NCBI GenBank assembly: GCA_016125285.1 | Contig: WGMA01000051.1 | Location: forward strand, 1 to 64,000 | Source of the DNA: Phycisphaera sp. | GTDB taxonomy: Bacteria > Planctomycetota > Phycisphaerae > Phycisphaerales > Zrk34 | DNA length: 64,000 nucleotides | Direction: 5' to 3' | Shown: piece by piece, positions 23,967-48,105 of the stretch | How the letters are laid out: each line of letters opens with the position of its first letter | Numbering within the stretch: position 1 is the stretch's first letter | The notes under the pieces: generated by a model | Databases searched by the model: none | Told to the model about the DNA's origin: nothing | The model's input: only the letters and a program-made list of their open reading frames with translations | Translations under genes and position numbers: made by a program

Positions 23967-24017
23967 CGACGAGTCCTTTCGCGGATCGACCACGCTCAAG
24001 TCTGGAGACCTCACACG

Positions 24018-26873: not shown

Positions 26874-29447
26874 CTACTCGGCGGCCAGCTCGTACCACAG
26901 CGTCTTGTAGCGCGGGCCGAGTTCCGCGGTGAGCGAGCCGTCGGCGAGCACCGTCAATTCGACCTCGCCCGTGCGTTTGCCCGTGCCATCGAGCACGAAC
27001 AACCGCCGCGCGTGCTGTGACGCAGGCAGCGTCAGCGTCGCGTTGATGCCGTTGACGAGCGTCGGCCCGTGGCCCCACTTCGTGCCGACGCTGGTGCGGT
27101 CGGCGTTCCACACCATGTCCTGGTTCTCGGCGTTACCCACCGCGGTGATCAGTACCGACGCGGACTGCTCCAGCGGCTTGCCGTCGAGGCTCGTCGCCAC
27201 CAGCACCGCGTAATCGCGTTGCGTCGGGCCGAATCTCACCGACCACCCGCCGACATCGAACGACCGCCCCGCCACCAGCCCCCACACCGCGCGCGACGCC
27301 GGGGCATTCACGCGGATGAACGCCTTGTCCATCTCACGCGCGTCCCACCGAACCGATCCGTCCGGGGTCTCCAGTTCGCGACGCTCGGCCCGCTTCAGCT
27401 CCGCGACGTCGGGCGATGCGTGGCTCTTGTCCGGCTTCATGTGAGGATCGGTGCCCACGCGGTAACGCAGGCCCAACGCGCCGAGCGTCTCGCCCCGGCC
27501 CGGCGCCGCCAGCGCCGACTCGGTCAGCGCCGCCACGTCACCACGCCGGAACATCGCCGCGCACGCGCCCATCAGCGCCGACTTGCACGGCTGGCCGTTG
27601 ACGTCGAAGAACCCGCTGAAGTGGTCCGTCGCCCAGTGGTCCGACGCGCCGTGGTACTGGAAGAAGAACACCGCATCCCAGTCCTGCAGCGCCGCGATCG
27701 TCGCGGCGATCGGCACGCCGTCGGCCGAAAAATAGCCCGGCTCGCCCGTGTTCCACTCCGTAAACGTGAACGGCTTGCCCTCGACACGCCACGGCGTCCG
27801 CATCAGCAGGTTCACGCGCGGCCAGCCGTTGTCGAACGGGTACGCCACCAGCGTCTCGTTCTGCACCGTCCACGAGTTGGCGTCCCACTGCCGGCCATGA
27901 AAGATCGGGTGGTGCCAGTACGCGTGCATGTCGGCGAAGTCCGCGACCTGGTCCAGCACGTCCATCGGCTGATAGTTCGCCTGCGTTGTCGTTACCGGCG
28001 CCTTCACGCCCAGGTCATCGATGAGATACCGCTTCGCCTCACGGTAGAACGCCAACTCCGTGTCGTGCATGAACCGCAGAAAGTCGTGTGACGCGCCCAG
28101 CGCCCACGACGCGTCGGGCAGTTCGACGTTGCCCGCCTCGACGGACTGCCCGTCCGGCATCACGGTGTCACCGCCGCCCTTCGACAGCTTCACGTTCCGC
28201 AGCTCCACCGCCGCGATGTGCCCGCCGAGATCGAACGCGAGGCGGCCATCGTTCGTCACATCGTCCGTCGCCTCGAACTGTAGCAGGTGCGTCTTCCACG
28301 CCTTGCCGAGCGACACCTGCTGCGACAGCCCGAGCGACTTCCATCCGCCGCTGACCGTTGCGATGTTCAACGCGATGTCGCGCGGCTCGTCGGCGCGTGC
28401 GTCAAACCGAAGCGTATACAGCGCACCGCTCTTGAGTGTCAGCGGCGTCGACGTCAGTTGCTGATGCCACGACTGCGGCGGGACGACCTTCGGGGCGATG
28501 CGCAACGTCGTCGTGTCGTCCTCCTTCTTCGCGATGACCTCGAGCGGCGCCTTGCCGCCGTTGTCCGACACCCACCAGCCGCCGCGATTCGCCCCGCCCC
28601 AACCCGACGACGTGATCACCGGCGGTGTGGTTGTGCTCGCCGTCGGGGCCCACGCGGCACGCACCGCCTCGGTCGAACCGTACGTCGCCTTCAGCCACGC
28701 GCTCCACCGCGCGACGAGCGTCGCGTGGTACGGCTCCGGCGCCGCCAGCAGCAGGTCGGGCCCGGCGTTGGTGAACTTGTTCTCGTTGGTCATCTCCATG
28801 ATCGCCACGGCCGGGTCGTCGACACGCCGCAGGTTGTCGCGGTACGGGTTGCGATGCGTCAGGAACTCACGCCAGAACGCGAAGATCGCCCGCTGGATCT
28901 CCGGCTGAAAGTGCAACGCGTGCTTGTCGGACTGGGCGTAGTGCTGCGTGCCGAGCCCCGCGAAGCCGAGCTTCCGGCTCGGCGTGTAGCCCACGTGCAG
29001 GTTGAGGTCCGCATAGATGCCGTGCTTCGCAAGCTGCGCGAGAAAGTAGTCGAGACGATCGACCTGTTCGGGATCAAACGCGTCGTCCTTCGTGAGAATG
29101 CCCGTGGGCGAAGGCTGCGTGTCCATGTGATGGAAGCGGACGCAGTTGACGCCCAGCTTCGCGAGGTGCGCCGCGGCCTTCTCGGCGTCGACGTGGGTGG
29201 GGAAGTTGCCGCCGAAGCAGACGTTCACGCCCCAGATGCGCAAGCGTCCCGCGTCGGTGACGAAGTGGCCGTCGCGCACACGCACGAACCCGTCCGCGCC
29301 TGCGGGCGTCGGCGACAGGAACGAGAAGTCCGTCGCGGTCGCCGCCGCGTCATCGCCCGGCACCACGAACGGAAACCGCGTGTCAACGTCCGCGGCGATG
29401 AACGTCAACGCCACCACCCACGCCAGCATCCACACCTTGCGCGCCAT
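26874..29447 (-). CDS. Secreted glycosidase-like protein (cellulase-type GH-A clan)
   Basis: 857 residues. An N-terminal hydrophobic segment (about 4-22) is probably a signal peptide. The (beta/alpha)8 barrel begins near residue 65 with the Gly-Val-Asn-Val and Leu-Gly-Val-Asn-Cys-Val-Arg-Phe-His-His wording typical of GH5-like enzymes. Acid/base candidate is Glu222 (Asn-Glu-Asn) and nucleophile candidate Glu564 (Phe-Thr-Glu-Trp-Asn). The long separation is explained by an inserted beta-rich module at about 300-430 that looks like a CBM4/9-type carbohydrate-binding domain. The C-terminal 200 residues are beta-rich. An ATG 6 bases upstream (29453) is an alternative start. Exact substrate unknown. 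Confidence 0.82.
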   Translation of the reverse strand: MARKVWMLAWVVALTFIAADVDTRFPFVVPGDDAAATATDFSFLSPTPAGADGFVRVRDGHFVTDAGRLRIWGVNVCFGGNFPTHVDAEKAAAHLAKLGVNCVRFHHMDTQPSPTGILTKDDAFDPEQVDRLDYFLAQLAKHGIYADLNLHVGYTPSRKLGFAGLGTQHYAQSDKHALHFQPEIQRAIFAFWREFLTHRNPYRDNLRRVDDPAVAIMEMTNENKFTNAGPDLLLAAPEPYHATLVARWSAWLKATYGSTEAVRAAWAPTASTTTPPVITSSGWGGANRGGWWVSDNGGKAPLEVIAKKEDDTTTLRIAPKVVPPQSWHQQLTSTPLTLKSGALYTLRFDARADEPRDIALNIATVSGGWKSLGLSQQVSLGKAWKTHLLQFEATDDVTNDGRLAFDLGGHIAAVELRNVKLSKGGGDTVMPDGQSVEAGNVELPDASWALGASHDFLRFMHDTELAFYREAKRYLIDDLGVKAPVTTTQANYQPMDVLDQVADFADMHAYWHHPIFHGRQWDANSWTVQNETLVAYPFDNGWPRVNLLMRTPWRVEGKPFTFTEWNTGEPGYFSADGVPIAATIAALQDWDAVFFFQYHGASDHWATDHFSGFFDVNGQPCKSALMGACAAMFRRGDVAALTESALAAPGRGETLGALGLRYRVGTDPHMKPDKSHASPDVAELKRAERRELETPDGSVRWDAREMDKAFIRVNAPASRAVWGLVAGRSFDVGGWSVRFGPTQRDYAVLVATSLDGKPLEQSASVLITAVGNAENQDMVWNADRTSVGTKWGHGPTLVNGINATLTLPASQHARRLFVLDGTGKRTGEVELTVLADGSLTAELGPRYKTLWYELAAE

Positions 29448-29742
29448 ACCCATCACCTGTCTTGATCGAGTTCCGTGCCCACGCCCGACGCTGCGTCGCG
29501 CGCCTTGAACAGCATAGCATCGCGCCGTCGAGCCTGCCCCGTCGGGGCCAGCGTACACTCGCCTCAGCATTTCCCTGAGCAGCAACGCGAACTCAAGTTC
29601 TCATTGATTCTTCGATTGACGCGGACACCCCACGAACCCTACCGTGCAGTAGCGGCGTATCAACCTCAGTGGTTGGATACGTTGTCGAGCAAAGGTGGAC
29701 ACCATGCAAACGATCGCGCTGGCGAACAAGGGAACGACGCAC
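29448..29742. other. Divergent intergenic region between glycosidase and SDR
   Basis: 295 bases with no supported gene. On the minus strand a TATGCT (29511-29516) could be a -10 for the glycosidase. AAGGTGG ahead of ATG 29704 provides an alternative ribosome-binding site for a slightly longer SDR. Confidence 0.4.
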
Positions 29743-30775: not shown

Positions 30776-32251
30776 TCAGCGGCTGCGGAAGTACGGCTTG
30801 GACGCACGCTCTTCGAGACGATCACCCATGGCCTTCAGATCGAGCGGCGCGTCGGTTCGCCGATCCCACCAAACGTCGGCGCGCTCGGGGTCGTACAGCG
30901 GATTGGCGGTCGGCAGTTTCGCACCGACGCGCTCGCGCCACGCTTCGATCTTCGCGAGCATCGCCGCGGCGCGATCCGGCCGACGGGCCGAGAGATTGGT
31001 CGTCTCGCTCGGGTCGTCACGCAGATTGAACAGCGACAGCGCGCCGGTCTCGTACCACTCGATGAGTTTCCAATCGCCCATGCGAACCGCCGTCGCAGGC
31101 GTGCTGTGGTGGTAGTGCGGGTAGTGGATATAGATCGCCTCACGACCGAGGTCGGCGTTGGGATCGCGGAACACAGGCGTGAGGTTCACGCCGTCGATCG
31201 GCTGATCGGGGTTGGCGACGCCGGCGATCGCGCAGAACGTCGGCAGCATGTCCCACATCGCGGCCGGTTCGCGGCAGACCACTCCCGCGGGCGCCACGCC
31301 GGGCCACCGCACGATGAACGGCACACGCACGCCGCCCTCGTAGACCATGCCCTTCTCGCCACGCAGGGGTTCGTTGGTCGACACCACCTGCCCGGTGCCG
31401 GTGTACGCCTCACCCAGCCCGCCGTTGTCGGACGTGACGATCACCACCGTGTTTTCCGACATGCCCAGTTCGTCGAGTGTGTCGAGCAGGCGACCGACCT
31501 GCGTGTCCAGGTCCTCGACCATCGCCGCGTAGACCGGGTGATTCACGCCGGTCGTCGGCTTGGCCTTGTCGGCGTACTTGCTGATCGTCGACTCGTTGCC
31601 CTGAATGGGGATGTGCACGGCGTGGTGCGACACGTGAAGGAAGAACGGTTTGCCCGACTTCGCAGCGTGCTCGCGCAGGATATAGATCGCCTGATCGGTG
31701 ATGAGGTCCATGTCTTTCGGACCGTTGGGTTTGTCGCCGCGCCACTCGCGAAACGGCTTGCCGAGGTTGGCCGCGTTGACCTGATAGCCGTGCGAGCCCG
31801 GCGCGTTCGCCGCGCCCCACCCGAGGTGCCACTTGCCGAAATAGCCGGTGAGGTAACCCGCCGCGCCGAGCGCTTCGCCCGGAGTGGTGAGCGCGTGATC
31901 GAGGTGATCGGGCATCGCGGGCACGACAAGCTTCGCGAACTTCTTGTAGTGGCCGGGCAGGAAGTCCGTGATCCCGACGCGCGCGGAATTCTGCCCGGTC
32001 TCGATCGTGCCGCGCGTCGACGAGCAGACTGGCGTCGCGTAGAAGTCCGTGAAGCGCACGCCCTGCGACGCCAACGCGTCGATCCGGGGCGTCTCGTGAA
32101 ACTTGTGTCCGTAGCAACGCAGGTCGGGCCAACCCATGTCGTCGATCAGCACGAAGAGGATGTTCGGCTTAGCGGCCGCTTGCGACTTCGCAACGCTCGC
32201 GACTCCAAGCACCACCGCCATAACGATCGTTGCTACCCGCATCGCGCCCAT
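30776..32251 (-). CDS. Sulfatase with atypical Cys-Ser-Ser-Thr-Arg active-site motif
   Basis: 491 residues, a secreted type I sulfatase with a signal peptide (about 1-26). Metal-binding Asp37-Asp38 (Ile-Asp-Asp-Met-Gly), a His in the Gly-Lys-Trp-His block and an Asn/Asp block near 280 (Ser-Asn-Asp/Asp-Asn-Gly-Gly) are present. The active-site motif, which needs a formylglycine made from Cys, reads Cys76-Ser-Ser-Thr-Arg80: the canonical proline of C-x-P-x-R is serine. ATG 32251 and ATG 32242 are both possible; an ATG at 32278 overlaps the upstream gene. The upstream DUF6807 stop lies 11 bases away, so the pair is probably cotranscribed. Confidence 0.9.
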   Translation of the reverse strand: MGAMRVATIVMAVVLGVASVAKSQAAAKPNILFVLIDDMGWPDLRCYGHKFHETPRIDALASQGVRFTDFYATPVCSSTRGTIETGQNSARVGITDFLPGHYKKFAKLVVPAMPDHLDHALTTPGEALGAAGYLTGYFGKWHLGWGAANAPGSHGYQVNAANLGKPFREWRGDKPNGPKDMDLITDQAIYILREHAAKSGKPFFLHVSHHAVHIPIQGNESTISKYADKAKPTTGVNHPVYAAMVEDLDTQVGRLLDTLDELGMSENTVVIVTSDNGGLGEAYTGTGQVVSTNEPLRGEKGMVYEGGVRVPFIVRWPGVAPAGVVCREPAAMWDMLPTFCAIAGVANPDQPIDGVNLTPVFRDPNADLGREAIYIHYPHYHHSTPATAVRMGDWKLIEWYETGALSLFNLRDDPSETTNLSARRPDRAAAMLAKIEAWRERVGAKLPTANPLYDPERADVWWDRRTDAPLDLKAMGDRLEERASKPYFRSR

Positions 32252-32261
32252 CACGCTTCGT

Positions 32262-33542
32262 TTATTTCGCAAGTTCAACCTTCACTTTCGGTGGATCGCC
32301 GAACGCCGCCCAGTGCTGTTCGGCGAAAGACTTGTCGATGCCCGACTCGTGGATCAGGAACCGGTAGCGGAACACATGCGTCGCGCCGGGTTCCCACGTC
32401 CACGGCCCGGTCTGGATAGGCGCCCAGTTGAAGAACGGCCCGAACCCGCCGCTCGTGCGCATGTTCTCAGGGAAGCGATCGTTGTCCGGATGACACATCA
32501 GCAGCATCGACACGTCCTTCCCGCCGACCTTTCCGCTGTGCATGCACCACGCGGCGGCGGTCTGGTGTGCGTCCTGGTAGGTCTTACCCGCCGAGGTGAG
32601 GATTTCGTAATCCTTCTTATCCCAGTCCCTCGGCCCGCGGTAAGCCATGCCGCCGTAACGGTACTGCTCCAACAGAAGCGGCGCGTCGCTCACGTTGGTC
32701 TGTGTCGACGTGATGTCGAACATCCACCACCCGACGCGCGGCCCACCCGCGGCGTAGGCTCGCACGTCCCACTTCTCATGCAGCACGACGTGCTCCGCGT
32801 TATCGCCGACCTTCTTCTCGGGCAGCGCGACGTGATCGTGCTCCACGACGAATCGGCCGAACACGGGGCCGGCCTCCGACGGTCCGAACTTCGAGAATCG
32901 CACCGTGCCGCTTTCATCGCCGATGTTCCAGAAGTCGATCGCGCGGCCCTTCCACTTCGTGTGCACCCACGCCTGCCACAGGCCTTTGTGATGCGTGTGA
33001 TCCGCCGGGAAGTCCTCCGTCATCAGCAGGCCGTTCGGGCTGAACACGGGGTGGATGTACGCGCTGCGTGCGAACGCTTCGCGATTGAGTTGCGGGTTGT
33101 GCAGCGCCACGCCCTCCGGCACGGGAACGGGCGTGTAGTGGTATTGAAGCAACGGCCGTCCGTAAAGGTCGAGCGAGATCACGTCCTGATCACGCCGCAG
33201 CGCGACGTTTGACGCGGGCGACTTCGGATCGTTCCCGCGTACGAGCTCGAACGTCCGCACGCCGCCGGCACGCGTGGCGCCCGTCAGCGTGATCCAGAGC
33301 ACCGGCTTGTCGCCCGGCTCGTACTGCGAGGGAATCCAGTCGGCGCCCTCACGCACGTGATACCCGTCGATGAAGCTGACCACGCCCTGCGGCAGCGGCA
33401 CGGCGACCGGCGTGTCGTCGCGCTCGTGCGGGCCCGCCTCAACGGTGATCTTCGCCAACACCTTCTGCGCGTGCGCGGCCGACGTCGCGATCACCACGAG
33501 CAGCATCGACACGGCCAGCGTGCAACGGCGACACTTCGGCAT
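32262..33542 (-). CDS. PmoA-like (DUF6807) secreted protein
   Basis: 426 residues. A signal peptide covers about 1-25. The mark of the family is the motif near residues 165-195, His-Pro-Val-x-Ser-Pro-Asn-Gly and Phe-Pro-Ala-Asp-His-Thr-His-His-Lys-Gly-Leu-Trp. Proteins of this group occur in planctomycete and verrucomicrobial sugar-utilisation clusters; their reaction is not established to my knowledge. It sits between two sulfatases on the same strand, with 11 bases to the next start, so a role in the same polysaccharide pathway is likely. Nothing in the sequence identifies a catalytic mechanism; the conserved His cluster may bind metal. Confidence 0.87.
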   Translation of the reverse strand: MPKCRRCTLAVSMLLVVIATSAAHAQKVLAKITVEAGPHERDDTPVAVPLPQGVVSFIDGYHVREGADWIPSQYEPGDKPVLWITLTGATRAGGVRTFELVRGNDPKSPASNVALRRDQDVISLDLYGRPLLQYHYTPVPVPEGVALHNPQLNREAFARSAYIHPVFSPNGLLMTEDFPADHTHHKGLWQAWVHTKWKGRAIDFWNIGDESGTVRFSKFGPSEAGPVFGRFVVEHDHVALPEKKVGDNAEHVVLHEKWDVRAYAAGGPRVGWWMFDITSTQTNVSDAPLLLEQYRYGGMAYRGPRDWDKKDYEILTSAGKTYQDAHQTAAAWCMHSGKVGGKDVSMLLMCHPDNDRFPENMRTSGGFGPFFNWAPIQTGPWTWEPGATHVFRYRFLIHESGIDKSFAEQHWAAFGDPPKVKVELAK

Positions 33543-33544
33543 GC

Positions 33545-34951
33545 TCAGTTGTCTTTCTGCTTGTTCTTCTTGTTCCTGCCGCCGCTCGCGTAGAACCCTT
33601 CGCGTGTGTACTGATTGATCACGCTGCGGAGGCGGTCCCGCACCTCGCGCTGCTCGGCCGTGAGCTTGTTCGGGTCGAGCGGTGAGGTCTCGTAGAAGTC
33701 GGCCGGGACGTCGTAGAACTCACCGGTCCGGTAGAGCTTGTAACGGTGCGTGCGGGCGGACTCGCCGGCCGAGTGATCCTTGCCCGGATCCTGCAGCTTG
33801 CCGTTGCGGAAGTACCAGCAGTAGACGAACTCGCGCGGGTGGCCCACCTCGCCACGCATCTGCGGCAGGTAGCTGCGGCCGGTGACGCCGAGGTGCTCGG
33901 GCACCTTCACGCCGGCCGTGTCCGCCAGCGTCGGCAGCACATCGGAGAAGTCCACCAGGTCGGTGATCACGCGCTCGCGTGGGATCGAGCCGGGCCAGTT
34001 CGCGATCATCGACACGTGCGTGCCGTTATCCATCATGTGGCTCTTGCCACCGATCCATTCGCGACCGCGGAATCGCGACTTGATGCTGTGATACGTGCCG
34101 TTGTCGCCGGTGAAGATGAACAGCGTGTTCTCCCGAACGCCGGCCGCATCGAGCTTCGCGATCACCTTGCCGACCATCTTGTCGCAGTACGCCACCATGT
34201 CCGCGAAGTACTTGTCGTCGACGCCCTCTCCGCTCTTTTCCGACTTGTCGTTTCGACGAGCCATCGGGTCCCATTCCTTCGAGTCCGGCGTCGGCTCGAA
34301 CGGCCAGTGCGTCAGCATCATCGGGTAGTAAAGAAAGAACGGCTTGTCACCCTTCGCGGCGCGATCGATGAAGTCGAGCGCGTACGCGTTGACGATGTCG
34401 GGGCCGTACTCGCCGTTCTTGTAGTCGACCTCCTTGCCGTTGACCTCGAATCCGGGATTCGGATAACGATTGGGCCGACGCGTGAGTTGCCAGAGGCAGT
34501 ACTCGTCGAAACCGAACTTGTGCGGCCCCTCGAAGCCGCCCTTGAGCTGCCACTTGCCGGCAATGCACGTCGCGTAGCCCGCGTCGTGGAGGATATTGCC
34601 GAACGTCGTGGCCTTCGGATCGAGGATGCCGAACGCGATGTAGTTATCGCTGTTGTATTTGCCGGTCATGATCTGAACGCGCGACGGCGTGCAGATCGGC
34701 TGGCTGTAGCAGTGCTCGAATCGCACGCCGGTCTTCGCGAGTTGGTCGAGGTTCGGCGTCTTGTACGACTCGCCGCCGTTGGCCGTCACGCACTCGTAGC
34801 CCATGTCGTCGGCCATCATCAACACGATGTTCGGCCGCTTGTCCGCGGCGTTGGCTTGACGCATCGACAAGCTCTGTACCACGAACACAACAAGCACCGC
34901 CGCGCACAGGGCCTCGACATAGGTGAAGGTTCGAGTTGTCTGAATCCGCAT
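33545..34951 (-). CDS. Sulfatase with canonical CTPSR motif
   Basis: 468 residues. Signal peptide to about residue 36. Asp48-Asp49 (Ala-Asp-Asp-Met-Gly) and the active-site pattern Cys87-Thr-Pro-Ser-Arg91, which is the canonical formylglycine sequence, then Gly-Lys-Trp-Gln-Leu-Lys. It is the only one of the four adjacent sulfatases with the exact consensus. The stop codon is 2 bases from the DUF6807 start. The C-terminal tail is Lys/Asn-rich. It probably removes sulfate esters from a secreted or extracellular polysaccharide. Confidence 0.95.
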   Translation of the reverse strand: MRIQTTRTFTYVEALCAAVLVVFVVQSLSMRQANAADKRPNIVLMMADDMGYECVTANGGESYKTPNLDQLAKTGVRFEHCYSQPICTPSRVQIMTGKYNSDNYIAFGILDPKATTFGNILHDAGYATCIAGKWQLKGGFEGPHKFGFDEYCLWQLTRRPNRYPNPGFEVNGKEVDYKNGEYGPDIVNAYALDFIDRAAKGDKPFFLYYPMMLTHWPFEPTPDSKEWDPMARRNDKSEKSGEGVDDKYFADMVAYCDKMVGKVIAKLDAAGVRENTLFIFTGDNGTYHSIKSRFRGREWIGGKSHMMDNGTHVSMIANWPGSIPRERVITDLVDFSDVLPTLADTAGVKVPEHLGVTGRSYLPQMRGEVGHPREFVYCWYFRNGKLQDPGKDHSAGESARTHRYKLYRTGEFYDVPADFYETSPLDPNKLTAEQREVRDRLRSVINQYTREGFYASGGRNKKNKQKDN

Positions 34952-34987: not shown

Positions 34988-36469
34988 TCACTTGCCCTTT
35001 GGCGTCGTGTGTTTAACGCCGCCGCGACCGTAGTACGGGTAATGATCGAATGCCTCACCGCCGCCGACGACACGCGGGTCCTCGGTGGACTTCAACTCGG
35101 CCATGAGCTGCATCGCGAGCGTCCGCTTGATGTCCGCGTAGAACGGATCCTCCGCGATGTTGTGCAGTTGATCAGGGTCTCTGCTCAGATCGTAAAGTTC
35201 CTCGGCCGGGCGTTTGTCGAACGCGAGCGAAACCAGTCGACCGAACCTCGGATCGTCGCGATGAGCGAGCATGAAGTCCTTCGTCGGCCCGCCGTCGCAA
35301 TCTCCGCAGGCGTTGCCGTTGAACGACAGCGCCGGATCGGGGCAGCCCGCGGGCCACCGGTCCGGCTCGAAGTTGTAAATGTAGAGAAACCCGTCGGTGC
35401 GGATGGCACGCATCGGGTAGCCGCCGGGGTTCGGCTTCTCCTGCCCTTGGGCGTGACGCTCGCGACCGGTCAGCACGTGATCGCGCGACGCGACAACGCG
35501 GCCGGACTTCTCCGACGTCAGCACCGGCATCAGCGAACGACCGGTCATCTCGTCGGGGATGCGGACGTTCGCGGCCTCGAGGAACGTCGGCGCGAGATCG
35601 GTGAACGAGACGAAGTCCGTGACGCGCCGCCCGGCCTTGACCCTCGCGCCCCAGCGGATCGCCATCGGCACACGCACGCCGGAGTCGTACAGGTGACACT
35701 TGTGCCGCGGGAGCGGCATGCCGTGATCGCCGCTCATCACGATGATCGTGTTGTCGAGTTCGCCCGCCGCTTCGAGCATCGCGACGGCCTTCGCCACATC
35801 GCTGTCCCACCGCTGCACCTCGAAGTAGTAGTCCGCCACGTCGTTCCGCACGACCTCGTCATCGGGCAGGTCGGCCGGTAGTTTGATCGCGTTGACGTCC
35901 ATGCCGCTGCGTTTGCCGCTGCCCGGGTCGTATGGCCGGTGCGGGTCCGACGTGCCGAACCAGAAGCAGAACGGCTTGCCCTTCGTTCGCGACTTGAGGA
36001 AGTCGTCGAAGCTCTTGAACGACGGGCCGGCCGGGTCTTCCTCGCGTCCCAGCGCACGCCAGTCACCGGGGCCCCACGCCTTACGCCAGTGCCCGATCTC
36101 GTAGCCCGCGTCGCGCAGCAGATACGGAAACAGCTTGTACTTCGGGGCGAGCGACGACCAAAGGTTGCCGCCCTCCTCCAGACGCCAGTGGTACTGCCCG
36201 GTCAGCGCCGCGTTGCGGCACGGCGTGCACGACGGTGAGCTGACATACGCGTTATCGAACAGCACGCCCTCGCGCGCCAGGCGGTCGAACGTCGGCGTCT
36301 TGACGACCGGATCGCCGTACACTCCCGCGTGCGGCCAGCCCCAGTCGTCCGCGAGGCAGAACAGGATGTTGGGGCGGCTGTCCTCGACCGCACGCACCGC
36401 GCGCGGCGCCGTGAGGCCCACACCGAGCGCGATCGCCAGCATCCACACAATGAACAGATGACGTCTCAT
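34988..36469 (-). CDS. Sulfatase with CTPCR motif
   Basis: 493 residues. Signal peptide to about residue 28. Asp41-Asp42 (Leu-Ala-Asp-Asp-Trp-Gly) and the active-site pattern Cys81-Thr-Pro-Cys-Arg85. The formylglycine precursor Cys and the proline are retained, while the usual Ser/Ala at the fourth position is a second Cys. The start at 36469 is chosen because it overlaps the upstream sulfatase stop by one base (TGATG). Later Gly-Asp-His-Gly-Met supplies metal ligands. Substrate unknown. Confidence 0.94.
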   Translation of the reverse strand: MRRHLFIVWMLAIALGVGLTAPRAVRAVEDSRPNILFCLADDWGWPHAGVYGDPVVKTPTFDRLAREGVLFDNAYVSSPSCTPCRNAALTGQYHWRLEEGGNLWSSLAPKYKLFPYLLRDAGYEIGHWRKAWGPGDWRALGREEDPAGPSFKSFDDFLKSRTKGKPFCFWFGTSDPHRPYDPGSGKRSGMDVNAIKLPADLPDDEVVRNDVADYYFEVQRWDSDVAKAVAMLEAAGELDNTIIVMSGDHGMPLPRHKCHLYDSGVRVPMAIRWGARVKAGRRVTDFVSFTDLAPTFLEAANVRIPDEMTGRSLMPVLTSEKSGRVVASRDHVLTGRERHAQGQEKPNPGGYPMRAIRTDGFLYIYNFEPDRWPAGCPDPALSFNGNACGDCDGGPTKDFMLAHRDDPRFGRLVSLAFDKRPAEELYDLSRDPDQLHNIAEDPFYADIKRTLAMQLMAELKSTEDPRVVGGGEAFDHYPYYGRGGVKHTTPKGK

Positions 36470-37980
36470 CACTCGTAGTCCCACTTCATGATCCAGGGGT
36501 CGTCCGTCCGTTTTTGGAACGCCTTGAGCTTACCTTTCATACGCTCCAACACGTCGGCGTATTGCTGACTGTCGACCAGGTTATTGCCCTCGTTCGGGTC
36601 GGCCTCGAGGTCGTACAACTCAAACTGCGGCCGGTGGATGTACGAGTGCACGGTCTTGGCGCCGTACGGCGCATCCTGGCCGAGCTTCCACTGCGCCTGC
36701 CACGTCGGCGCCGCCCAGAGGTCCGACGCAAACGGAAACGGCAGCGGGTAGGCGATGTTCCAGATCAGCTTGAACCGCCGCTCGCGCACCACGCGCATCG
36801 GGTAGTACATCTGGATCTCGTGAAACGTATGCGACGCGTTGATCTCGTCCCAGCCTTCGACGTGCGTCTTGTCGAGCAACGCCAGGAACGACCGTCCGTG
36901 AAACTCGCCGGCCTTCGTGTCGCGCGTCGTCTGCGGATCGGTTCGCTCGGTGCGGTTGTTGATGTGCTCGACCTTTGCGAGCACCTCCTTGCGGACCTTA
37001 CCCTTGGGATCGAGCGCGCCGGCAAAGTCCACGATGGTGGGCGTGAGATCGACCCAGCTGACCATCGCATCGTTCACGACGCCGCGCTTCTCGACGTAGG
37101 GATTGCGGACGATGCACGGCGTGCGCAGGCCGCCCTCGTACACCGTGGTCTTCGCGCCGGGCATCGCGATGCCGTGGTCCGAGATGTAGATGAACAGCGT
37201 GTCGTCCCACTTGCCGGCGTCCTTGATGATCTGCGTAAGCCGCCCGACGCCCTGGTCGACACGCGAGATCGACTGGTAGTACTGAGCGATTTCGGCGCGA
37301 CACGTCGGCGTGTCGGGCAGGAAGCCGGGCACGATCACCTCCTTCGGGTCGTACACGACCTCGGTGATGCCGGGGTACGACTTGCCGGGCGCCGGGTTGC
37401 CGAACCGGTTGGGCTTGTACGGCAACTCGTCGGCGTCGCCGTTGCCCCGGTGCGGGTCGCACGTGGCGATGTACAGAAAGAACGGCTTGTCGGACTCGGT
37501 CTCGATGAACGCCTTGCAGTTGTCGGCCATCTCGACGGGGCTGCGGCAGTTGCCGGGTAGCTTTTCGTCGAACAGATACACCTGCTCGGGCGCGACGTGG
37601 TACTTGCCGCAGCGCGCGGTGCGGTACCCCGCGGCATCGAGGATGACCGGCAGCGACAGGATGTTGTCGTAGCTGGACATCTTATGATAGTGATGCTGAT
37701 GTCCGTACTGCCCGTTGGCGTGGTTCTGCAGGCCGGTGAGGATGACGGAGCGCGACGCCGAGCACGACGCCGTGGTAGCGAACGCGTAGGTGAATCGCGT
37801 GCCGTCCGCGGCGATGGCGTCGATGTTGGGCGTCTTGAGGACCGGGTTGCCGTAGCAGCCGGCGTCCGGCGACTGGTCGTCGGTCACGAACACGACGACG
37901 TTCCGCTTCGCGCCGAACGCCGTCGCGCCGATCAGCGTAACGAGCAACAGGCACACGATAAGCCGAGTGATTGATTGCAT
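36469..37980 (-). CDS. Sulfatase with CSASR motif
   Basis: 503 residues. Signal peptide to about residue 24. Asp34-Asp35 (Thr-Asp-Asp-Gln) and the active-site pattern Cys73-Ser-Ala-Ser-Arg77: alanine replaces the canonical proline. Asp-His-Gly-Ile-Ala further on supplies metal ligands. Cys-Asp-Pro-His-Arg near 195 follows the heparan/N-sulfoglucosamine sulfohydrolase-like subgroup, but this is weak evidence for substrate. It overlaps the next sulfatase start by one base. No obvious Shine-Dalgarno site is seen. It is the most upstream of the sulfatases. Confidence 0.92.
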   Translation of the reverse strand: MQSITRLIVCLLLVTLIGATAFGAKRNVVVFVTDDQSPDAGCYGNPVLKTPNIDAIAADGTRFTYAFATTASCSASRSVILTGLQNHANGQYGHQHHYHKMSSYDNILSLPVILDAAGYRTARCGKYHVAPEQVYLFDEKLPGNCRSPVEMADNCKAFIETESDKPFFLYIATCDPHRGNGDADELPYKPNRFGNPAPGKSYPGITEVVYDPKEVIVPGFLPDTPTCRAEIAQYYQSISRVDQGVGRLTQIIKDAGKWDDTLFIYISDHGIAMPGAKTTVYEGGLRTPCIVRNPYVEKRGVVNDAMVSWVDLTPTIVDFAGALDPKGKVRKEVLAKVEHINNRTERTDPQTTRDTKAGEFHGRSFLALLDKTHVEGWDEINASHTFHEIQMYYPMRVVRERRFKLIWNIAYPLPFPFASDLWAAPTWQAQWKLGQDAPYGAKTVHSYIHRPQFELYDLEADPNEGNNLVDSQQYADVLERMKGKLKAFQKRTDDPWIMKWDYE

Positions 37981-38139: not shown

Positions 38140-41100
38140 CTACTGCGAAACCGCGCCGACACTCTCGATCAACACGCCGTTGAGTATCGGCGAGCCCGTG
38201 ACCTTCTTGAACTCGATATCGAGCACGCCATCCTCAACCACAGCGGGCAGCCACGGCGTGCTGAACGGGCGGAACTTGCCGCGGGCCTCCTTGACGATGT
38301 CGAGGTTGTTGATCATGGGACGTCCCTCGATGTCGACCGTGAATACCCGCTTGCCAGCCAATTCCTCGCGCATCTCCGCGAAGATCAACATGACCCGATA
38401 CTTGCCGTTGGGTACGTCGAATTTGCAGCCGCCGACGTCGTACCAGAACGTGTGGACGACCTCGGCGAGTTCGGTGGCCGACGGTTCGCCAGCGGCGTCA
38501 GCCGTCTTGCCGCCGACCGTGCCATACAGGTTGCCCTTCTTGTATTCCTGCTGCTTGAGCCAGACACGCCCCTGCGGGTCAGTCACCGCCGGTCCGCCGG
38601 CGTTGAAATACAGCGTCAGCTTGCCCGTGGCAGACAACGTCCCGGCCGTCGTGGTTTTGCCTTTATCGCCCTTCTCCGGCCCGGCGGTCTTATCACCGCC
38701 GGCGACGGCGCCCGCGCCACTGTCTAGAACCGACGCGACATCGCGGGTCGTCGTCGCGTTGAACCGCAGCTTGCCGAGGTTGAGGAACTGGTGGACCTTG
38801 AACGTGATGATCGTTCCGCCGGGATAGCCGATCGGGTGCGTCGGCTCGAAGGTCGCAGTGGTCACCTTTCCCGGCCGACGCTCCACCGCCCAGTACGTCT
38901 TCTCGTCGCCATCCAACATTTCAGCGAGCGACCCCTTGTCACCCGCGAACCCGTGCTGCTTGACGAACTTCACGGGCACAGCCTTCGATGGGTCTGACTT
39001 CGGTGCGACGGTCACCTCGATGTCGCGGATGACGAACTTGCCCCCGATTCGTCCCGGACCGTCCGCCTGCAACGACGAATCGGTCATGGCTTCGAGTTGC
39101 AACGCGGAGATGAACGTCAGGTCGGTTTCGGTCGTGATCGAGTAGGTCTCGTTCGCGACGTTGCGTCCGCCCGCGAGCACGGCGCCGTCGCCCTGGATCG
39201 CCAGTTCCGCGACGTTCGACGCCTCGGCCTTTACCGGCTGCAGGGGCACGAAGCCCGTCACCGCCGGCGGCTGCTCCTTGAGCGCCGACGCGAGGTGATC
39301 CTTGCCGATGACTTCCCGCGTCGCATCCGGCCGCTGCCACTCCACCTTCACGTACGCGCTGCCGCCGCCCTCGTTGTGATAAACCTCGAAGTAGTACGGC
39401 TTGCCGGCTTCGAGCTCGATCTCATCGGAGGGTTTGGTCTTGTGGGCGACCACCTTGATGTTGGCCGGGTCCGCGTCGGTGCTCAGCCGGAGTGATCCCC
39501 CGTCATCCGCAGAGACAAAAAACTTGTATTTGCCCGTCTGAGGCGGCACCAGATAGCCTGCGATTCTTACGACGAACTTGTCGCCCGCGCCCCGATACTC
39601 GAGCTTGGCGACCTGGGCCGTCTTGTCGGGCTTGACGCCCTTGTCGATCCGATCCTTCAACTCCTGATTCGGATTGCCGCCGATGTTATCCCATCGCTCG
39701 AGCGGGACGGGGCCCATCACCACGGCAACCAGGTCACGCGTGTCCTTCAGCGGCGTCGCAGCCGGGTCATCTGGATACGGGGCCGGCTCGGGCTTCGGCG
39801 GCGCGACCGGCTGGGGCTTCGACGGCGTCGTGGGTTCGGGCTCGGGCTCCGTCGGCGTGGAGTTCGACGCGACGGCCTTCGTCGGCTCACCGGGACGCAC
39901 ATACACGCGTAGCCGCTTGTACGAGTAAGACCCGGCGTTCGACGTGAATGTCCAGTCGGGGTTGCCGCGAGGGTTGTTACCGATGCCGAGTTCCGCGTCC
40001 TGCGTCCAGTGATTGATCGCGAAGATCGTTTCCTTCGCGTTGTGGTTGTGCACCTGCATCGAGCCGTAGTTGCCGCTGTTGCTCGGTTGATCGCCGAAGT
40101 CGTAGGTGGTGCCGGACGCGTTAGGCACCTTGGCGCTGTTCTGCGCACCGTAGTTGGTGGACCAGAACTCGATGTTCCCGCCGTTCATGTTCGACGCGCT
40201 CCTGATACCCGCCACGTTGGACTGCACGTGCAGCGCCGCGACGTTCGTCTGGAAATGCGCCTTCGACGCGGCGGTCGGAATGCCGATCTTGGTTAGGTCG
40301 TCGGTGAACGGATCCATCGCGACAAACACATACTGAAGCTCCTCGCCATTCTTCTTCAGCTCGACCAGATACCCGATGCGCTTGAACGGCCCCTTGAACT
40401 TCTCATGATTGTCGACGTCGTACACGATCGTCGGCCCGAGTTTCGAGAGGTCGAGATCGTAGATCAGCTCGAGCCCTTCGATTCCCTTAATATCCTTCGC
40501 CGCGTCGGGATGCTCCTCAACGGCGACCGCGGGCTTGTTCTTCTTTTCGAGTTCCGCCTGTCCCTCCTCGACGAGTTTGGCGAGGTCCGCGGGGGTTAGC
40601 GCCCTGGCGTAAACACGGGCCTCGTCGATCAGGCCGCGGAACGCCAGTGATTCACCGCGATTGTACGCGCCGATCGTGGCGTGCTCGGGTGCGACGAGTT
40701 TGTCGACGTCGACCGACCCGAGGCTCTGGCCGTCGAGAAACAGCTCACCCTTGCCTTTCCCGCCGTCGCCGGTCCACGTCAGCGCCACGTGATACCACTT
40801 CTCCGCTTCGATCACCGCGGAGCCCGACCCGTCAATCGGCTGATCGCCCAGCTTGGCGCTGAGGTGGCCGTCGGCGTTGATCCGGATGTCAAAGCTGCAC
40901 GGCGCAGCGGCGGAGCTAAAAAGCATGGCGTCACCGAGTGCTTCGGCATTGAACCACATCGCGATCGTCCCGGACTTGGCATCGATCGCCTTGTCGGGCA
41001 CCGCGACGTAATCCTTCGCTCCGCCATCGAAACGCGCAGCCTTGTACATCAGGCCATCGACGTAGGTCACCTTGCCGCTCGCCTCACCGTCAAGCACGTT

Positions 41101-42528
41101 GGGGGTGTCGTCACGCGTGTGGTTGTTGAACGTCCATCGCGCCATCAGCCCTTCTTCACGCGGCTTGATCTCCACCGGCGGCGCGGGGTCGGTGGCAGAC
41201 GGCGGGACCATGGTGATATTGTTCGTCGCGCTGTTCGGATTCTGTGGATCGCTCGGTTGCGAAGCGATCGGACGCGATGCCGCGCCACCGCCAGCACTCG
41301 GACGCGGCGCTGGCTTTGGGCCATCGTCCTTGCCGCCGCCGAAAGCGATCAGCAGAATCGCCACGAGGATGCCAACACCGATGACGCCCGCCGCGATCAA
41401 CATCGGCGTGTTCGACTTGCCCTTCTGCGACACAACGGGGATGGCCGACGAAGTCGCCGACGGCTTCGGACGAACCGCGGAGATGCTACGCGACGAGGCG
41501 CCGCCGGACGCCTTCGACGCGGGCGAGGACGCCTGGCTCAGGGCCGCGAGTTCGTCGTAGGCCTCGGCGGGTTCCTGCTCGACAGGCGCCTCGCCGTGCA
41601 GCACCGCCTCCTTCGCCTGTTGCAGCGCATCGATCAGGCTGTCGTAGGAGTCGAACCGATCGGCGGGCTTCGTCGCGAGCATCTTCGCGACGACGTTCGA
41701 TGTGGCGCGACTCACATCGGGCCGAACGCTCCGCAGGTCCGGCGCGGGGTTCGTGAGGCGCATCTTGATGGTCTCGGTGACCGACTGATGCAGGAACGGC
41801 GGCTTGCCCGCGAGGATGTGAAACAGCGAAGCGCCGAGGCTGTACATGTCCGATTTGAAGTTCGGAGCGTGGCCGCGGGCGATCTCCGGCGCAATGTAGT
41901 ACGGCGTGCCGACGACGCCCTTGTCCTTGTTGTGCTTCCGCTCGTGCTGCGCAGTGCCGAAGTCGATCACCTTCGCGTTGCCGTCGCGATCAAACAGCAC
42001 GTTGCCGGGCTTGACGTCCATGTGCACCAGCCCGACACGCTGCGCAGCCCGGAGGCCCTCGACGATGCCGATCGCGAAGTCGAGCACCTTCTCTTCTTCC
42101 GGCCGGTTCTCGAGGTACTTCCGACCGGACCCGCCGTCGAGCAGTTCCATCACGATGTAGTGCTGGTCGCGGTGCTCGCCGAGCGTATGGATCTTGACGA
42201 TGTTGTGGTGATTGAGCGACGCGAGCGTCCGGGCCTCGGTGATGATCTCCTTGGCCAGTTCCTTGTCGTCGGAGTCGTCGTCGCCCACGAGGACCTTGAT
42301 GGCGACCTCGCGATCCAGGCGGGTATCGACGGCGCGGAACACGTGGCCGAACGAGCCCTTGCCCAACCGCTGATAGACGAGGAAGTGGTCGAACGACGCG
42401 GGCACCGGCACCTCGGCGCCGCACTTCGGGCACGTCGTCCGCGTCATCGGCTTCACCGACGACGTGTCGATCGTCTGCCCGCAATCCTGGCAGGTGACCT
42501 CTTTAACCCGATCGGCCTTGAAGCCCAT
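38140..42528 (-). CDS. Receptor-like Ser/Thr protein kinase with LamG, PA14 and malectin-like ectodomains
   Basis: 1462 residues. Order: zinc ribbon (Cys13, Cys16, Cys33, Cys36); Hanks-type kinase about 48-300 with the Gly loop Gly-Lys-Gly-Ser-Phe-Gly, Lys78, His169-Met-Asp171 in the catalytic loop, Asp189-Phe-Gly and Ala-Pro-Glu; linker; one membrane helix about 376-397; LamG/concanavalin-like about 460-640; a beta domain about 685-880 of the sort seen in planctomycete sialate-esterase-type proteins; a Pro-rich linker; PA14 about 925-1080; a discoidin-like module about 1100-1265; malectin-like about 1300-1460. So the kinase is cytoplasmic and three or more carbohydrate- or protein-binding domains lie outside. 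Start at 42528 has GGAG upstream. Context suggests sensing of the polysaccharide degraded by the sulfatase cluster (inference). Confidence 0.88.
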   Translation of the reverse strand: MGFKADRVKEVTCQDCGQTIDTSSVKPMTRTTCPKCGAEVPVPASFDHFLVYQRLGKGSFGHVFRAVDTRLDREVAIKVLVGDDDSDDKELAKEIITEARTLASLNHHNIVKIHTLGEHRDQHYIVMELLDGGSGRKYLENRPEEEKVLDFAIGIVEGLRAAQRVGLVHMDVKPGNVLFDRDGNAKVIDFGTAQHERKHNKDKGVVGTPYYIAPEIARGHAPNFKSDMYSLGASLFHILAGKPPFLHQSVTETIKMRLTNPAPDLRSVRPDVSRATSNVVAKMLATKPADRFDSYDSLIDALQQAKEAVLHGEAPVEQEPAEAYDELAALSQASSPASKASGGASSRSISAVRPKPSATSSAIPVVSQKGKSNTPMLIAAGVIGVGILVAILLIAFGGGKDDGPKPAPRPSAGGGAASRPIASQPSDPQNPNSATNNITMVPPSATDPAPPVEIKPREEGLMARWTFNNHTRDDTPNVLDGEASGKVTYVDGLMYKAARFDGGAKDYVAVPDKAIDAKSGTIAMWFNAEALGDAMLFSSAAAPCSFDIRINADGHLSAKLGDQPIDGSGSAVIEAEKWYHVALTWTGDGGKGKGELFLDGQSLGSVDVDKLVAPEHATIGAYNRGESLAFRGLIDEARVYARALTPADLAKLVEEGQAELEKKNKPAVAVEEHPDAAKDIKGIEGLELIYDLDLSKLGPTIVYDVDNHEKFKGPFKRIGYLVELKKNGEELQYVFVAMDPFTDDLTKIGIPTAASKAHFQTNVAALHVQSNVAGIRSASNMNGGNIEFWSTNYGAQNSAKVPNASGTTYDFGDQPSNSGNYGSMQVHNHNAKETIFAINHWTQDAELGIGNNPRGNPDWTFTSNAGSYSYKRLRVYVRPGEPTKAVASNSTPTEPEPEPTTPSKPQPVAPPKPEPAPYPDDPAATPLKDTRDLVAVVMGPVPLERWDNIGGNPNQELKDRIDKGVKPDKTAQVAKLEYRGAGDKFVVRIAGYLVPPQTGKYKFFVSADDGGSLRLSTDADPANIKVVAHKTKPSDEIELEAGKPYYFEVYHNEGGGSAYVKVEWQRPDATREVIGKDHLASALKEQPPAVTGFVPLQPVKAEASNVAELAIQGDGAVLAGGRNVANETYSITTETDLTFISALQLEAMTDSSLQADGPGRIGGKFVIRDIEVTVAPKSDPSKAVPVKFVKQHGFAGDKGSLAEMLDGDEKTYWAVERRPGKVTTATFEPTHPIGYPGGTIITFKVHQFLNLGKLRFNATTTRDVASVLDSGAGAVAGGDKTAGPEKGDKGKTTTAGTLSATGKLTLYFNAGGPAVTDPQGRVWLKQQEYKKGNLYGTVGGKTADAAGEPSATELAEVVHTFWYDVGGCKFDVPNGKYRVMLIFAEMREELAGKRVFTVDIEGRPMINNLDIVKEARGKFRPFSTPWLPAVVEDGVLDIEFKKVTGSPILNGVLIESVGAVSQ

Positions 42529-45399: not shown

Positions 45400-45422
45400 C
45401 ACGCACTCCTGAGTGGTCGACC

Positions 45423-47078
45423 TTACGCGCCGGCCGACACGCCGTCGCGCTCCATCAATTCGAGGATACGCCGCATCGGGCCGGGCATCAGTTCACCGAA
45501 CGCGCAGAGACTGGCGTCGGAGATCATGTCGAGCAGTTCGCGCAGTGCCTGACGATCGCACGTCGCGGCCTCGGCCATGTCGAGCGCCCGTCGCGAACCG
45601 ATGCTGCACGGCACGCACTTGCCGCACGACTCATGTTTCATGAACCGCAGCAGGTGAACGAGCACCTTGCGCCAGTCCGTGCCGCGCGGGATCGCGACCA
45701 TTCCGCCGTGGCCAAGCTGCACGCCCCGTTTCGCCATCGCCGTGTAGCAGATGGGCGCGTCCCATTCCTCCGGCGTCAGCAGGCTGCCCATCGGCCCGCC
45801 CAGCATCACCGCCGCGATCTCCGTGCCGGTCCGAGCGCCGCCCGCATGGATCTCGATCAGCTCGCGCAGCGTCAGACCGAACTCCACTTCGACGATGCCC
45901 GGCCGCGCAAAGCCGTGATTCAGGCACATCGCCTTGGTCCCGCTCGACTCGCTCGTGCCGTAGCCGGCGTAGTCCCCAGCGCCGCGATCGATGATCCACG
46001 GCACGCACACGAGCGTTTCGACGTTGTTCACCACCGTCGGGTTGCCGTAGAGCCCACTGGTCACCGGGTACGGCGGGCGCAGCTGTACTTCTCCGCGGAA
46101 TCCTTCGATCGCAGACAGCATCGCCGTCTCTTCTCCGCAGACATAGCTGCCCATGGCGGGGAACACCTCGACGTCGAACTCGAAGTCCGTGCCGAGCACG
46201 CTGTCGCCGAGCACGTTGGCCGCACGCGCCTGCTCGATCGCGTGGCTCATCAGCTCGATCGCCGCGGGATACTCGTGACGGATGAAGACGATGCCGCGGC
46301 TCGCACCCACGGCGTACGCGCACAACGCCATGCCCTCGAGCACGGCGTGCGGGTCGTCTTCCATCAGCACGCGGTCGATGTACGATCCCGGATCACCCTC
46401 GTCGCCGTTGGCCACCACGTACTTTGTCTCGCCCGGCGCCTCGGCGCATCGGCGCCACTTGGCGCCGGTCGGGAAGGCCGCACCGCCACGCCCTCGCTCG
46501 CCGGAGCGCTCGACCGCGTCCAGCACGCTGCCGGGCGTCTGCCGCAGCGCCGCGCGCAGCGCCTCATAAACGCCCGCGGCGCGGGCGACGCTCAAATCGG
46601 AATGATCGCCGGTGATCACCCGGCGCGTCACGATCCCCTCCGGCGCGACGCACCGCACCGACGGACGCGGATGCTCGTGCTTGGGCTCGTTGACCAGGGC
46701 CGCAGCGGATCGGTCGCCACACTCGATCACGACGTGACCGTCCGCCCTCAGCACCGTCGGCGAACGATCGCAATATCCCAGGCAATACACGGAACTACAC
46801 GGCTTGTCTTCGAGGAGCCGGACGTGCAGGTCGTCCGCGCCGGCCAACAGGCATGACGTGCCGTGGCATATCCCCAGCGTGTTGGGCCCGGTCTGCAGCC
46901 CGGTGTAGTAGGAGGCCGCGGCGCGGATCGTCGCCGCAGGAAGGTCGACCTCCTTCGCCAACGAAGCAACCTGATCCGCATCGAGCCGGCCGTGCTCCGC
47001 GATGTGCTGATGGATGCGGAGCAACGCCCCGGGGCGACCGTGGTGCGTGCGATGATACTGTCGCAATGCGATACTCAT
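45423..47078 (-). CDS. NuoE-NuoF fusion, NAD-reducing subunit of formate dehydrogenase
   Basis: 551 residues. Residues 1-120 form a NuoE-like thioredoxin-fold ferredoxin with Cys71-x4-Cys76 and Cys99-x3-Cys103 for [2Fe-2S]. From about 190 the NuoF domain has Gly-Arg-Gly-Gly-Ala-Ala-Phe-Pro (FMN site), Gly-Asp-Glu-Gly-Asp-Pro-Gly and Cys-Gly-Lys-Cys-x2-Cys for a [4Fe-4S]. The fusion of NuoE and NuoF is known in some NAD-dependent formate dehydrogenases and hydrogenases, where it passes electrons to NAD. It is followed by fdhA and is preceded in the operon by two cytochromes, 31 bases upstream. Confidence 0.93.
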   Translation of the reverse strand: MSIALRQYHRTHHGRPGALLRIHQHIAEHGRLDADQVASLAKEVDLPAATIRAAASYYTGLQTGPNTLGICHGTSCLLAGADDLHVRLLEDKPCSSVYCLGYCDRSPTVLRADGHVVIECGDRSAAALVNEPKHEHPRPSVRCVAPEGIVTRRVITGDHSDLSVARAAGVYEALRAALRQTPGSVLDAVERSGERGRGGAAFPTGAKWRRCAEAPGETKYVVANGDEGDPGSYIDRVLMEDDPHAVLEGMALCAYAVGASRGIVFIRHEYPAAIELMSHAIEQARAANVLGDSVLGTDFEFDVEVFPAMGSYVCGEETAMLSAIEGFRGEVQLRPPYPVTSGLYGNPTVVNNVETLVCVPWIIDRGAGDYAGYGTSESSGTKAMCLNHGFARPGIVEVEFGLTLRELIEIHAGGARTGTEIAAVMLGGPMGSLLTPEEWDAPICYTAMAKRGVQLGHGGMVAIPRGTDWRKVLVHLLRFMKHESCGKCVPCSIGSRRALDMAEAATCDRQALRELLDMISDASLCAFGELMPGPMRRILELMERDGVSAGA

Positions 47079-47109
47079 GCCGATCCGGCCTCCGTGATCA
47101 ACGATGGTT

Positions 47110-47535
47110 TCACAGCCGCTTGTGCAGCATCTTCTCGCGAATCACTTTGTGACAGCTGACGCACGCCAGGGTCATCTGCACGTAACCCATCGCCGCGCCG
47201 TCGACGTTCTTCGCCTTCGCCTCGCGTGCCATTTGCTGCACGGCCCGACGAAACGCCTCGCTCTGCCCGCGGTACGCCGCGTCGTCGAAGACCATCCACT
47301 CCGCCTGTTGCGACAACGCCAGCAGGCTGTCTGAACGCTTCGCGATCTTGTCGAAGTCCTCCACCGCGATACCCTCGAGCACGGCCTGACTGTCGGCGAG
47401 CTTCTGCTTCATCAGCGTCTTCAGCGGCGCCTCCTTCGGCTGGCCAGCGCCGGTGCTGACCCATGCGCTCAGCATCAGCGCAAACAACGCCACGACACTC
47501 CACACCATCCATCTTGTGCGATTCATCGACCTCAT
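47110..47535 (-). CDS. c'-like monoheme cytochrome
   Basis: 141 residues. A hydrophobic signal at about 8-28 directs it across the membrane. The heme site Cys125-x2-Cys128-His129 is near the C-terminus and preceded by Gln/Ala-rich amphipathic helices, as in the four-helix cytochrome c' family. The ATG at 47535 overlaps the stop of the preceding cytochrome (ATGA) and has AGGAGG 6 bases upstream. It is a paralogue of that protein, with common wording (Val-Leu-Glu-Gly-Ile-Ala; Gln-Ala-Glu-Trp). Electron carrier role inferred; function in the formate operon unknown. Confidence 0.87.
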   Translation of the reverse strand: MRSMNRTRWMVWSVVALFALMLSAWVSTGAGQPKEAPLKTLMKQKLADSQAVLEGIAVEDFDKIAKRSDSLLALSQQAEWMVFDDAAYRGQSEAFRRAVQQMAREAKAKNVDGAAMGYVQMTLACVSCHKVIREKMLHKRL

Positions 47536-48011: not shown

Positions 48012-48074
48012 GGTGTGGCTCCCTTGACCTTTACCTCACGATTCTGGTCCCGAACACCCCGAACCGATATCGGG

Positions 48075-48088: not shown

Positions 48089-48105
48089 GTGTCGAAATCG
48101 CGACG

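Follow-up and report, generated by a model that had tools for sequence, protein, structure and literature searches.

A planctomycete transmembrane kinase with a malectin-fold domain: a candidate glycan- or surface-sensing receptor

Plant malectin receptor kinases, including those of the CrRLK1L type (FERONIA, ANXUR), combine a malectin-fold ectodomain with one membrane helix and a Ser/Thr kinase; in CrRLK1L proteins the ectodomain is an N-terminal tandem of malectin-like domains and the RLK kinase is C-terminal. For bacterial Ser/Thr receptor kinases we know of few ligands except cell-wall fragments. A literature search, thin on subscription journals and confined to articles without their supplements, found no paper describing malectin kinases in planctomycetes. 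As outlined in the main text of a survey of Planctomycetota kinases, the transmembrane Hanks-type members place the kinase in the cytoplasm and accessory domains in the periplasm, usually with one helix in between, and have expanded in individual lineages with shuffling of their domains; the main text makes no mention of malectin, PA14, LamG or lectin (PMC11032199). Here, we analyze a gene that combines several of these modules with a kinase, encoded in a 64,000-nucleotide stretch of Phycisphaera sp. DNA (contig WGMA01000051.1, positions 1 to 64,000), referred to as the window.

Gene, zinc ribbon and kinase domain

The gene runs on the minus strand from an ATG at 42528 to a stop at 38140, and the coordinates given in an earlier, sequence-only reading proved exact. 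The frame is intact over 1462 aa, contains no internal stops, and has the highest coding score of its region. That reading had also proposed a single chain extending from a zinc ribbon to a malectin domain, and the Pfam matches, cysteine alignment and hydropathy profile agree with this, the discoidin-like label apart. The modules are ordered from the N terminus as follows:

38140..42528, minus strand: whole gene of the putative receptor kinase, 1462 aa (intact frame and coding score)
42391..42528, minus strand: N-terminal zinc ribbon, residues 1-46 (C13, C16, C33, C36; invariant cysteines, DZR weak in Pfam)
41584..42390, minus strand: Hanks-type Ser/Thr kinase domain, residues 47-315 (Pkinase, PF00069, 1.3e-49, over the curated Pfam cut-off)
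41326..41415, minus strand: single transmembrane helix, about residues 372-401 (the only hydrophobic helix; sole hydropathy peak >1.6)
40564..41046, minus strand: LamG / concanavalin A-like domain, residues 495-655 (PF13385, 1.9e-22)
39889..40512, minus strand: sialate-esterase-associated domain, residues 673-880 (homology to esterase-type C-terminal domains)
39289..39741, minus strand: PA14 domain, residues 930-1080, with a Pro-rich hinge before it (PF07691)
38689..39282, minus strand: discoidin-like domain, residues 1083-1280, common to PSD1/DUF1553 proteins (family alignment A4)
38149..38631, minus strand: malectin domain, residues 1300-1460 (PF11721, 6.7e-17)

A chance or mis-assembled open reading frame was ruled out because the domains recur in matching order in paralogues. 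No full-length orthologue was found at 1e-100 among 40 relatives.

The four zinc-ribbon cysteines are kept in all 12 aligned family members, and none of the Pfam zinc-ribbon models reaches its cut-off on the window protein. The PF00069 match together with all five catalytic residues (K78, E98, D171, N176 and D189, invariant in the alignment of 12 family members) identifies the second module as a Hanks-type Ser/Thr kinase. The motifs VAIK, HMD, DFG and APE are present. HMD replaces HRD throughout the clade of malectin- or LamG-bearing zinc-ribbon kinases, the basal member excepted, and its presence in the window kinase and in 12 of the 13 other clade members excludes the RD class. The solved structures nearest to the kinase domain are those of StkP, PknA and PknB. 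The protein is nevertheless not a PASTA kinase, as judged by a score of 229.7 bits against the NF033483 model (PknB_PASTA_kin; cut-off 450), in an alignment that ends at residue 394; a Pfam search detected no PASTA domains.

Ectodomain modules

The malectin assignment made by the sequence-only reading is borne out by both the PF11721 score (62.4 bits, cut-off 23) and the fold of the predicted structure, which confirms a true malectin fold at the level of the model: VIA Z values were 16.9 for ANXUR2, 15.7 for FERONIA and 14.6 for human malectin, and the best value, 21.4, was obtained for a Bacteroides GUS C-terminal domain. Xenopus malectin contacts diglucose through Y67, Y89, Y116, F117 and D186 (PMC7783096). 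The window residues aligned to the first four are D, Y, R and E, and the Asp equivalent to D186 is absent from the motif alignment; as the alignment reads, one of five contacts (the Y89 equivalent) is kept, and the domain does not classify as a diglucose-binding malectin. Since the pocket is mostly unconserved, the ligand is not inferable from this domain. The aromatic contacts are likewise missing from CrRLK1L malectin-like domains, and FERONIA has RALF peptides among its ligands in addition to pectin (PMC7783096); the window ectodomain could accordingly have a protein ligand.

The LamG and PA14 modules are assigned by Pfam, Laminin_G_3 (PF13385) scoring 80.5 bits (cut-off 27.6) and PA14 (PF07691, residues 979-1077, 1.3e-13) 51.4 bits (cut-off 24). 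The sialate-esterase-associated label is correct by homology: residues 673-880 share 47-55% identity with the C-terminal domains of esterase-type proteins in a comparison of six sequences, and one of these proteins (L035) contains PF03629. The domain belongs to no family in the Pfam search, and the fold searches gave no convincing carbohydrate-binding match; Foldseek returned nothing <1e-3, and a second comparison only a weak TLDc-like set. For the discoidin-like module, the label is plausible but unproven, as F5/8 type C does not match the window domain and is sub-threshold in two of ten relatives, and the VIA rows are mostly malectin. Overall, the results support an ectodomain consisting largely of carbohydrate-binding-type folds.

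Kinase family, gene neighbourhoods and proposed function

The genome contains four malectin matches, all associated with zinc-ribbon kinases, one of them lying in the open reading frame directly downstream of such a kinase. In the kinase tree, the zinc-ribbon kinases that bear malectin or LamG all fall into one clade (97/95), and other lectin-type ectodomains occur in the family, e.g., a legume-lectin domain (1.8e-27) and tandem PA14. The window protein is one paralogue of this small planctomycete family, which is best explained by shuffling of modules onto a conserved zinc-ribbon kinase.

We propose that the window protein is most likely a glycan- or surface-sensing receptor kinase. The earlier interpretation as a receptor kinase stands with respect to the transmembrane kinase, the carbohydrate-binding-type ectodomain and the malectin fold, and is not supported with respect to control of the sulfatase locus. 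Inferring topology, binding and control, we consider it probable that the protein is a single-pass receptor with a glycan-related ligand outside and ligand-controlled phosphorylation inside. The kinase would lie in the cytoplasm, with one membrane pass leading to a modular ectodomain on the outer side of the cytoplasmic membrane. The LamG, esterase-associated, PA14, discoidin-like and malectin modules may bind a glycan, either of a surface or from the environment, or a glycan-attached ligand; binding would alter the activity of the kinase, which would then phosphorylate some cytoplasmic target. No substrate, phosphatase or regulator was identified. It is distinctly improbable that the ectodomain serves chiefly as an anchor or as a binder of a protein or peptide, its modules being adhesive and not glycan-sensing. 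In favour of this reading, PA14, LamG and discoidin-like modules occur promiscuously, and the last of these also turns up in planctomycete proteins without a signalling role, PSD1 proteins among them; against it, the paralogues consistently fuse these modules to an intact kinase via one membrane helix.

The sulfatase cluster described beside the kinase is real, and comprises four S1 sulfatases, a DUF6807 protein and a weak GH42-like protein on one strand:

36469..37980, minus strand: adjacent S1 sulfatase, 159 bp downstream of the kinase stop (PF00884, 8e-49; context, functional link not shown)
34988..36484, minus strand: second S1 sulfatase (PF00884, 6.9e-39; context)
33545..34951, minus strand: third S1 sulfatase (PF00884, 1.3e-47; context)
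32262..33542, minus strand: DUF6807 protein (PF14100, 2.3e-61; context)
30776..32278, minus strand: fourth S1 sulfatase (PF00884, 3.7e-51; context)
26874..29453, minus strand: probable glycosidase with weak GH42-like and CBM_4_9 matches (PF02449, 9e-5; context)

The sequence-only reading saw in this arrangement a dedicated switch for the adjacent sulfatase/glycosidase locus: the ectodomain would sense the sulfated glycan, and the kinase would then activate the cluster. The kinase does precede the four sulfatase genes on a common strand, and zinc-ribbon kinases are slightly enriched ≤5 kb from sulfatases (5 of 14 versus 1.9 expected, P=0.02). With the window gene left out, however, the count becomes 4 of 13 versus 1.7 expected (P=0.065); the family-wide proximity is only marginally above chance, and adjacency is unremarkable in a genome with about 107 sulfatases in 6.1 Mb. 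Moreover, orthologues of the adjacent sulfatase (62-70% identity) have no kinase nearby in any of five genomes, within the stretch examined, which argues against a conserved linkage between the kinase and a glycan-degradation locus. We therefore downgrade the switch, based on this synteny and the proximity statistics, to quite unlikely. No transcription factor was found within the cluster, and a consensus scan of the kinase-sulfatase gap returned no promoter or terminator, which says little either way. The DUF6807 protein is uninformative as a locus marker because no orthologue was found at 1e-70 in 121 genomes. Relatives of the kinase adjoin rml genes, an ECF sigma factor or housekeeping genes, and others tRNA-synthetase or transport genes. 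Several of these homologues lie far from glycan-degradation genes, an outcome that the earlier reading itself had named as refuting its proposal, here taken as a general rule.

The rml neighbourhoods suggest a special case of the receptor reading, not exclusive of it, in which the kinase monitors envelope integrity through the cell's own rhamnose-containing surface polysaccharide, in a working mode resembling that of plant malectin receptor kinases or bacterial PASTA kinases. In four genera, a conserved kinase orthologue has rmlA (dTDP-rhamnose synthesis; 74-78% identity) immediately downstream, no degradation genes adjoining and, in three of the four, a methyltransferase upstream. With rmlC/rmlD-type genes also close by, this orthologue is linked to surface polysaccharide. 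The window kinase, however, is a lineage-specific paralogue from a different subclade, with another ectodomain and unlinked to rml genes, and for it we regard envelope monitoring as possible, if rather doubtful. A broader scenario, which we consider unlikely, is that planctomycete malectin receptor kinases evolved apart from those of plants to read the cell's own rhamnose-containing polysaccharide, the rmlA-linked kinase being the founder from which window-type sensors of environmental glycans were derived, in particular lineages, by module shuffling.

Comparison with known systems

PknB/StkP PASTA kinases, which supply the closest solved kinase domains, span the membrane as the window protein does, but the latter is devoid of PASTA domains. 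The zinc ribbon and the HMD motif set its clade apart from the Planctomycetota kinases as covered in the main text of the survey (PMC11032199). Three further Planctomycetota kinases (L174, L192 and L196) likewise join an N-terminal kinase to a C-terminal malectin domain in one chain; they were assembled independently, as they are RD kinases of a separate clade with different middle regions, and a zinc ribbon was not found in them. The closest malectin structures (Z 17-21) are C-terminal domains of Bacteroides GH2 beta-glucuronidases, where the fold is carried by an enzyme and not by a kinase.

The family would also help explain the stimuli of the many planctomycete membrane kinases, and the rmlA linkage of its conserved member in four genera provides a concrete, testable ligand candidate. 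The proposed likeness to plant malectin receptors holds for the fold (VIA Z about 16), the one membrane helix and the presence of a Ser/Thr kinase, and not for the domain order. The window protein has an N-terminal kinase and a single C-terminal malectin domain accompanied by other modules, and does not qualify as a CrRLK1L member. Its kinase belongs with bacterial StkP, PknA and PknB, and its modules stand in the opposite order; the likeness is therefore convergent, and a bacterial family that pairs an external, true malectin fold with an intact internal kinase would constitute a convergent counterpart of the plant wall-sensing receptors.

Architecture of the kinase and its malectin domain

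The window kinase (1462 residues) is encoded by an open frame on the minus strand (42528-38140), exactly where the sequence-only reading had placed it, and its coding score is the highest of its region. A zinc ribbon, a kinase, a single membrane helix, LamG, PA14 and malectin are joined in one chain, and this part of that reading is borne out by Pfam, CxxC pairs and hydropathy. The catalytic residues of the kinase are intact.

Domains of the window kinase (protein residues; gene on the minus strand)
First 46 residues: zinc ribbon; two CxxC pairs, kept in 12 of 12 aligned family members; only weak matches to Pfam ribbon models
51-293: protein kinase; Pfam, above curated cut-off
~372-401: single hydrophobic helix
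503-649: LamG; Pfam, above curated cut-off
673-880: sialate-esterase-associated domain
979-1077: PA14; Pfam, above curated cut-off
1083-1280: discoidin-like domain, also present in PSD1/DUF1553 proteins, one of them at window 56767-57282
1306-1444: malectin; Pfam, above curated cut-off

The esterase-associated label proposed earlier also stands: sialate-esterase-type proteins carry a C-terminal domain that is 47-55% identical. "Discoidin-like" is a reasonable but unproven name. The fold match of the esterase-associated domain (window 39871-40551, minus strand; also in loci L009-L012 and L035) is weak but coherent: TLDc-type domains fill the first nine VIA rows (Z 6.7-5.1, below the trusted level), after which Z falls to 4.6. 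PSCyt/PSD1/DUF1501 proteins occur in the window and its relatives and point to a planctomycete.

A structure model of residues 1075-1462 (pLDDT 74.9) has a clear malectin fold as judged by VIA: the C-terminal domain of beta-glucuronidases from Bacteroides matches at Z 17-21, ANXUR1/2 at ~16-17 and human malectin at 14.6. Sequence profiles concur. In Xenopus malectin, diglucose is contacted by five residues: Y67, Y89, Y116, F117 and D186 (PMC7783096). In the phmmer alignment with the window domain, Y89 is retained and Y67, Y116 and F117 are replaced by Asp, Arg and Glu, respectively. D186 falls outside this alignment; a by-eye match of flanking motifs presumably places no Asp there. The contacts are thus mostly replaced, and the diglucose ligand should not be transferred. 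Plant receptors likewise do without those aromatic contacts (PMC7783096).

A receptor-kinase working is the most likely one, in which we infer topology, ligand and output: the kinase domain would lie inside the cell, connected through the single helix to a modular ectodomain outside, and ligand binding to the ectodomain would alter the kinase, which would then phosphorylate a target.

A family of zinc-ribbon kinases

Similarity searches returned many kinases in the same genome; among those retrieved, the N-terminal zinc ribbon is present in at least 11. Several of these have ectodomains, made up of LamG (L023, L025), LamG with two PA14, discoidin-like and malectin domains (L027, 1724 residues), or a legume lectin with two discoidin-like domains and malectin (L028, 1566 residues). 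All four malectin matches in this genome lie within zinc-ribbon family proteins or, for L029, in a LamG-malectin frame that follows the kinase frame by 8 bases. At L029 (8350-11603, minus strand) the kinase frame stops near the end of the kinase domain, reflecting a split gene, a frameshift or an assembly error. In a ~1.8-kaa relative (L061:8355-13898, minus strand, start approximate) with PA14, discoidin-like, malectin and LamG domains, the glycine loop of the kinase is degenerate and IEFG stands where IDFG is expected; it is probably a pseudokinase.

In a tree of 46 kinases built on one protein alignment, a single clade of 14 (support 97/95) takes in every zinc-ribbon kinase that bears malectin or LamG, and the window kinase falls within an own-genome expansion of five paralogues (98/94). 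The catalytic HRD motif is replaced by HMD in 13 of the 14 members; the basal L106 keeps HRD.

Genomic context and the neighbouring sulfatases

The kinase had been proposed to detect a glycan outside and to switch on the neighbouring sulfatase/glycosidase locus. Control of this locus is not supported. The adjacent sulfatase (36469-37980, minus strand) has clear orthologues in five genomes; no kinase is present in the neighbourhoods fetched around them (up to 20 kb each, in some cases truncated by contig ends; genes called by our own codon-usage caller). The own genome holds ~107 sulfatases, which are clustered. Of 14 zinc-ribbon kinases, 5 have a sulfatase within 5 kb (1.9 expected, P=0.02); when the window kinase, which prompted the question, is left out, the figure is 4 of 13 (1.7 expected, P=0.065). 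The set of 14 was gathered by similarity to the window protein and includes one divergent kinase (L041/C74). Co-transcription is not evident, since gaps of 159 and 141 bp separate the kinase from the sulfatase start and the upstream formate-dehydrogenase-like gene.

The expected association with degradation loci also failed for the conserved member of the family. This member is L028, which groups with its orthologues L063, L064 and L099 (support 99/97); the four come from as many genera and have discoidin-like and malectin domains. Each is followed directly downstream, on the same strand, by rmlA (74-78% identity to that of L028), with rmlC- and rmlD-type genes nearby; three of the four also have a methyltransferase and a TolB/PDZ-type protein upstream. 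This context belongs to the synthesis of sugar nucleotides for surface polysaccharide rather than to the degradation of glycans.

An ECF sigma factor lies directly upstream of L023 (7845-10864, plus strand), on the same strand, and hints at one output that the family might have; no sigma factor lies near the window kinase.

Two other gene groups in the window were observed:
19381-26860, plus strand: five Gfo/Idh/MocA-like oxidoreductase genes in a row with similar leader sequences (one confirmed by Pfam, four assigned by likeness)
42670-48966, minus strand, upstream of the kinase: formate-dehydrogenase-like alpha subunit, NuoE/F-like fusion and formate/nitrite transporter

Comparison with known receptor kinases

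Planctomycetota commonly have transmembrane Ser/Thr kinases that bear accessory domains in the periplasm; the main text of a survey reporting 105 accessory domains and 307 architectures makes no mention of malectin, PA14, LamG or lectin (PMC11032199). Elsewhere in the phylum, a kinase-first, malectin-last frame was found at 3 of 40 sampled malectin-bearing loci (L174, L192 and L196, from other families). Unlike the window kinase, these belong to the RD type and group in a clade of their own, and the combination has therefore arisen more than once. The sialate-esterase-associated module, too, has been put on a kinase independently, as the C-terminal domain of a different planctomycete RD kinase (L012:7996-9834, plus strand).

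The description of the window kinase as built like a plant malectin receptor holds for the malectin fold (Z 15.7 to FERONIA) but not for the overall design: the plant receptors have the reverse domain order, and the window kinase domain is bacterial, of the StkP/PknA/PknB kind, so the likeness is convergent.
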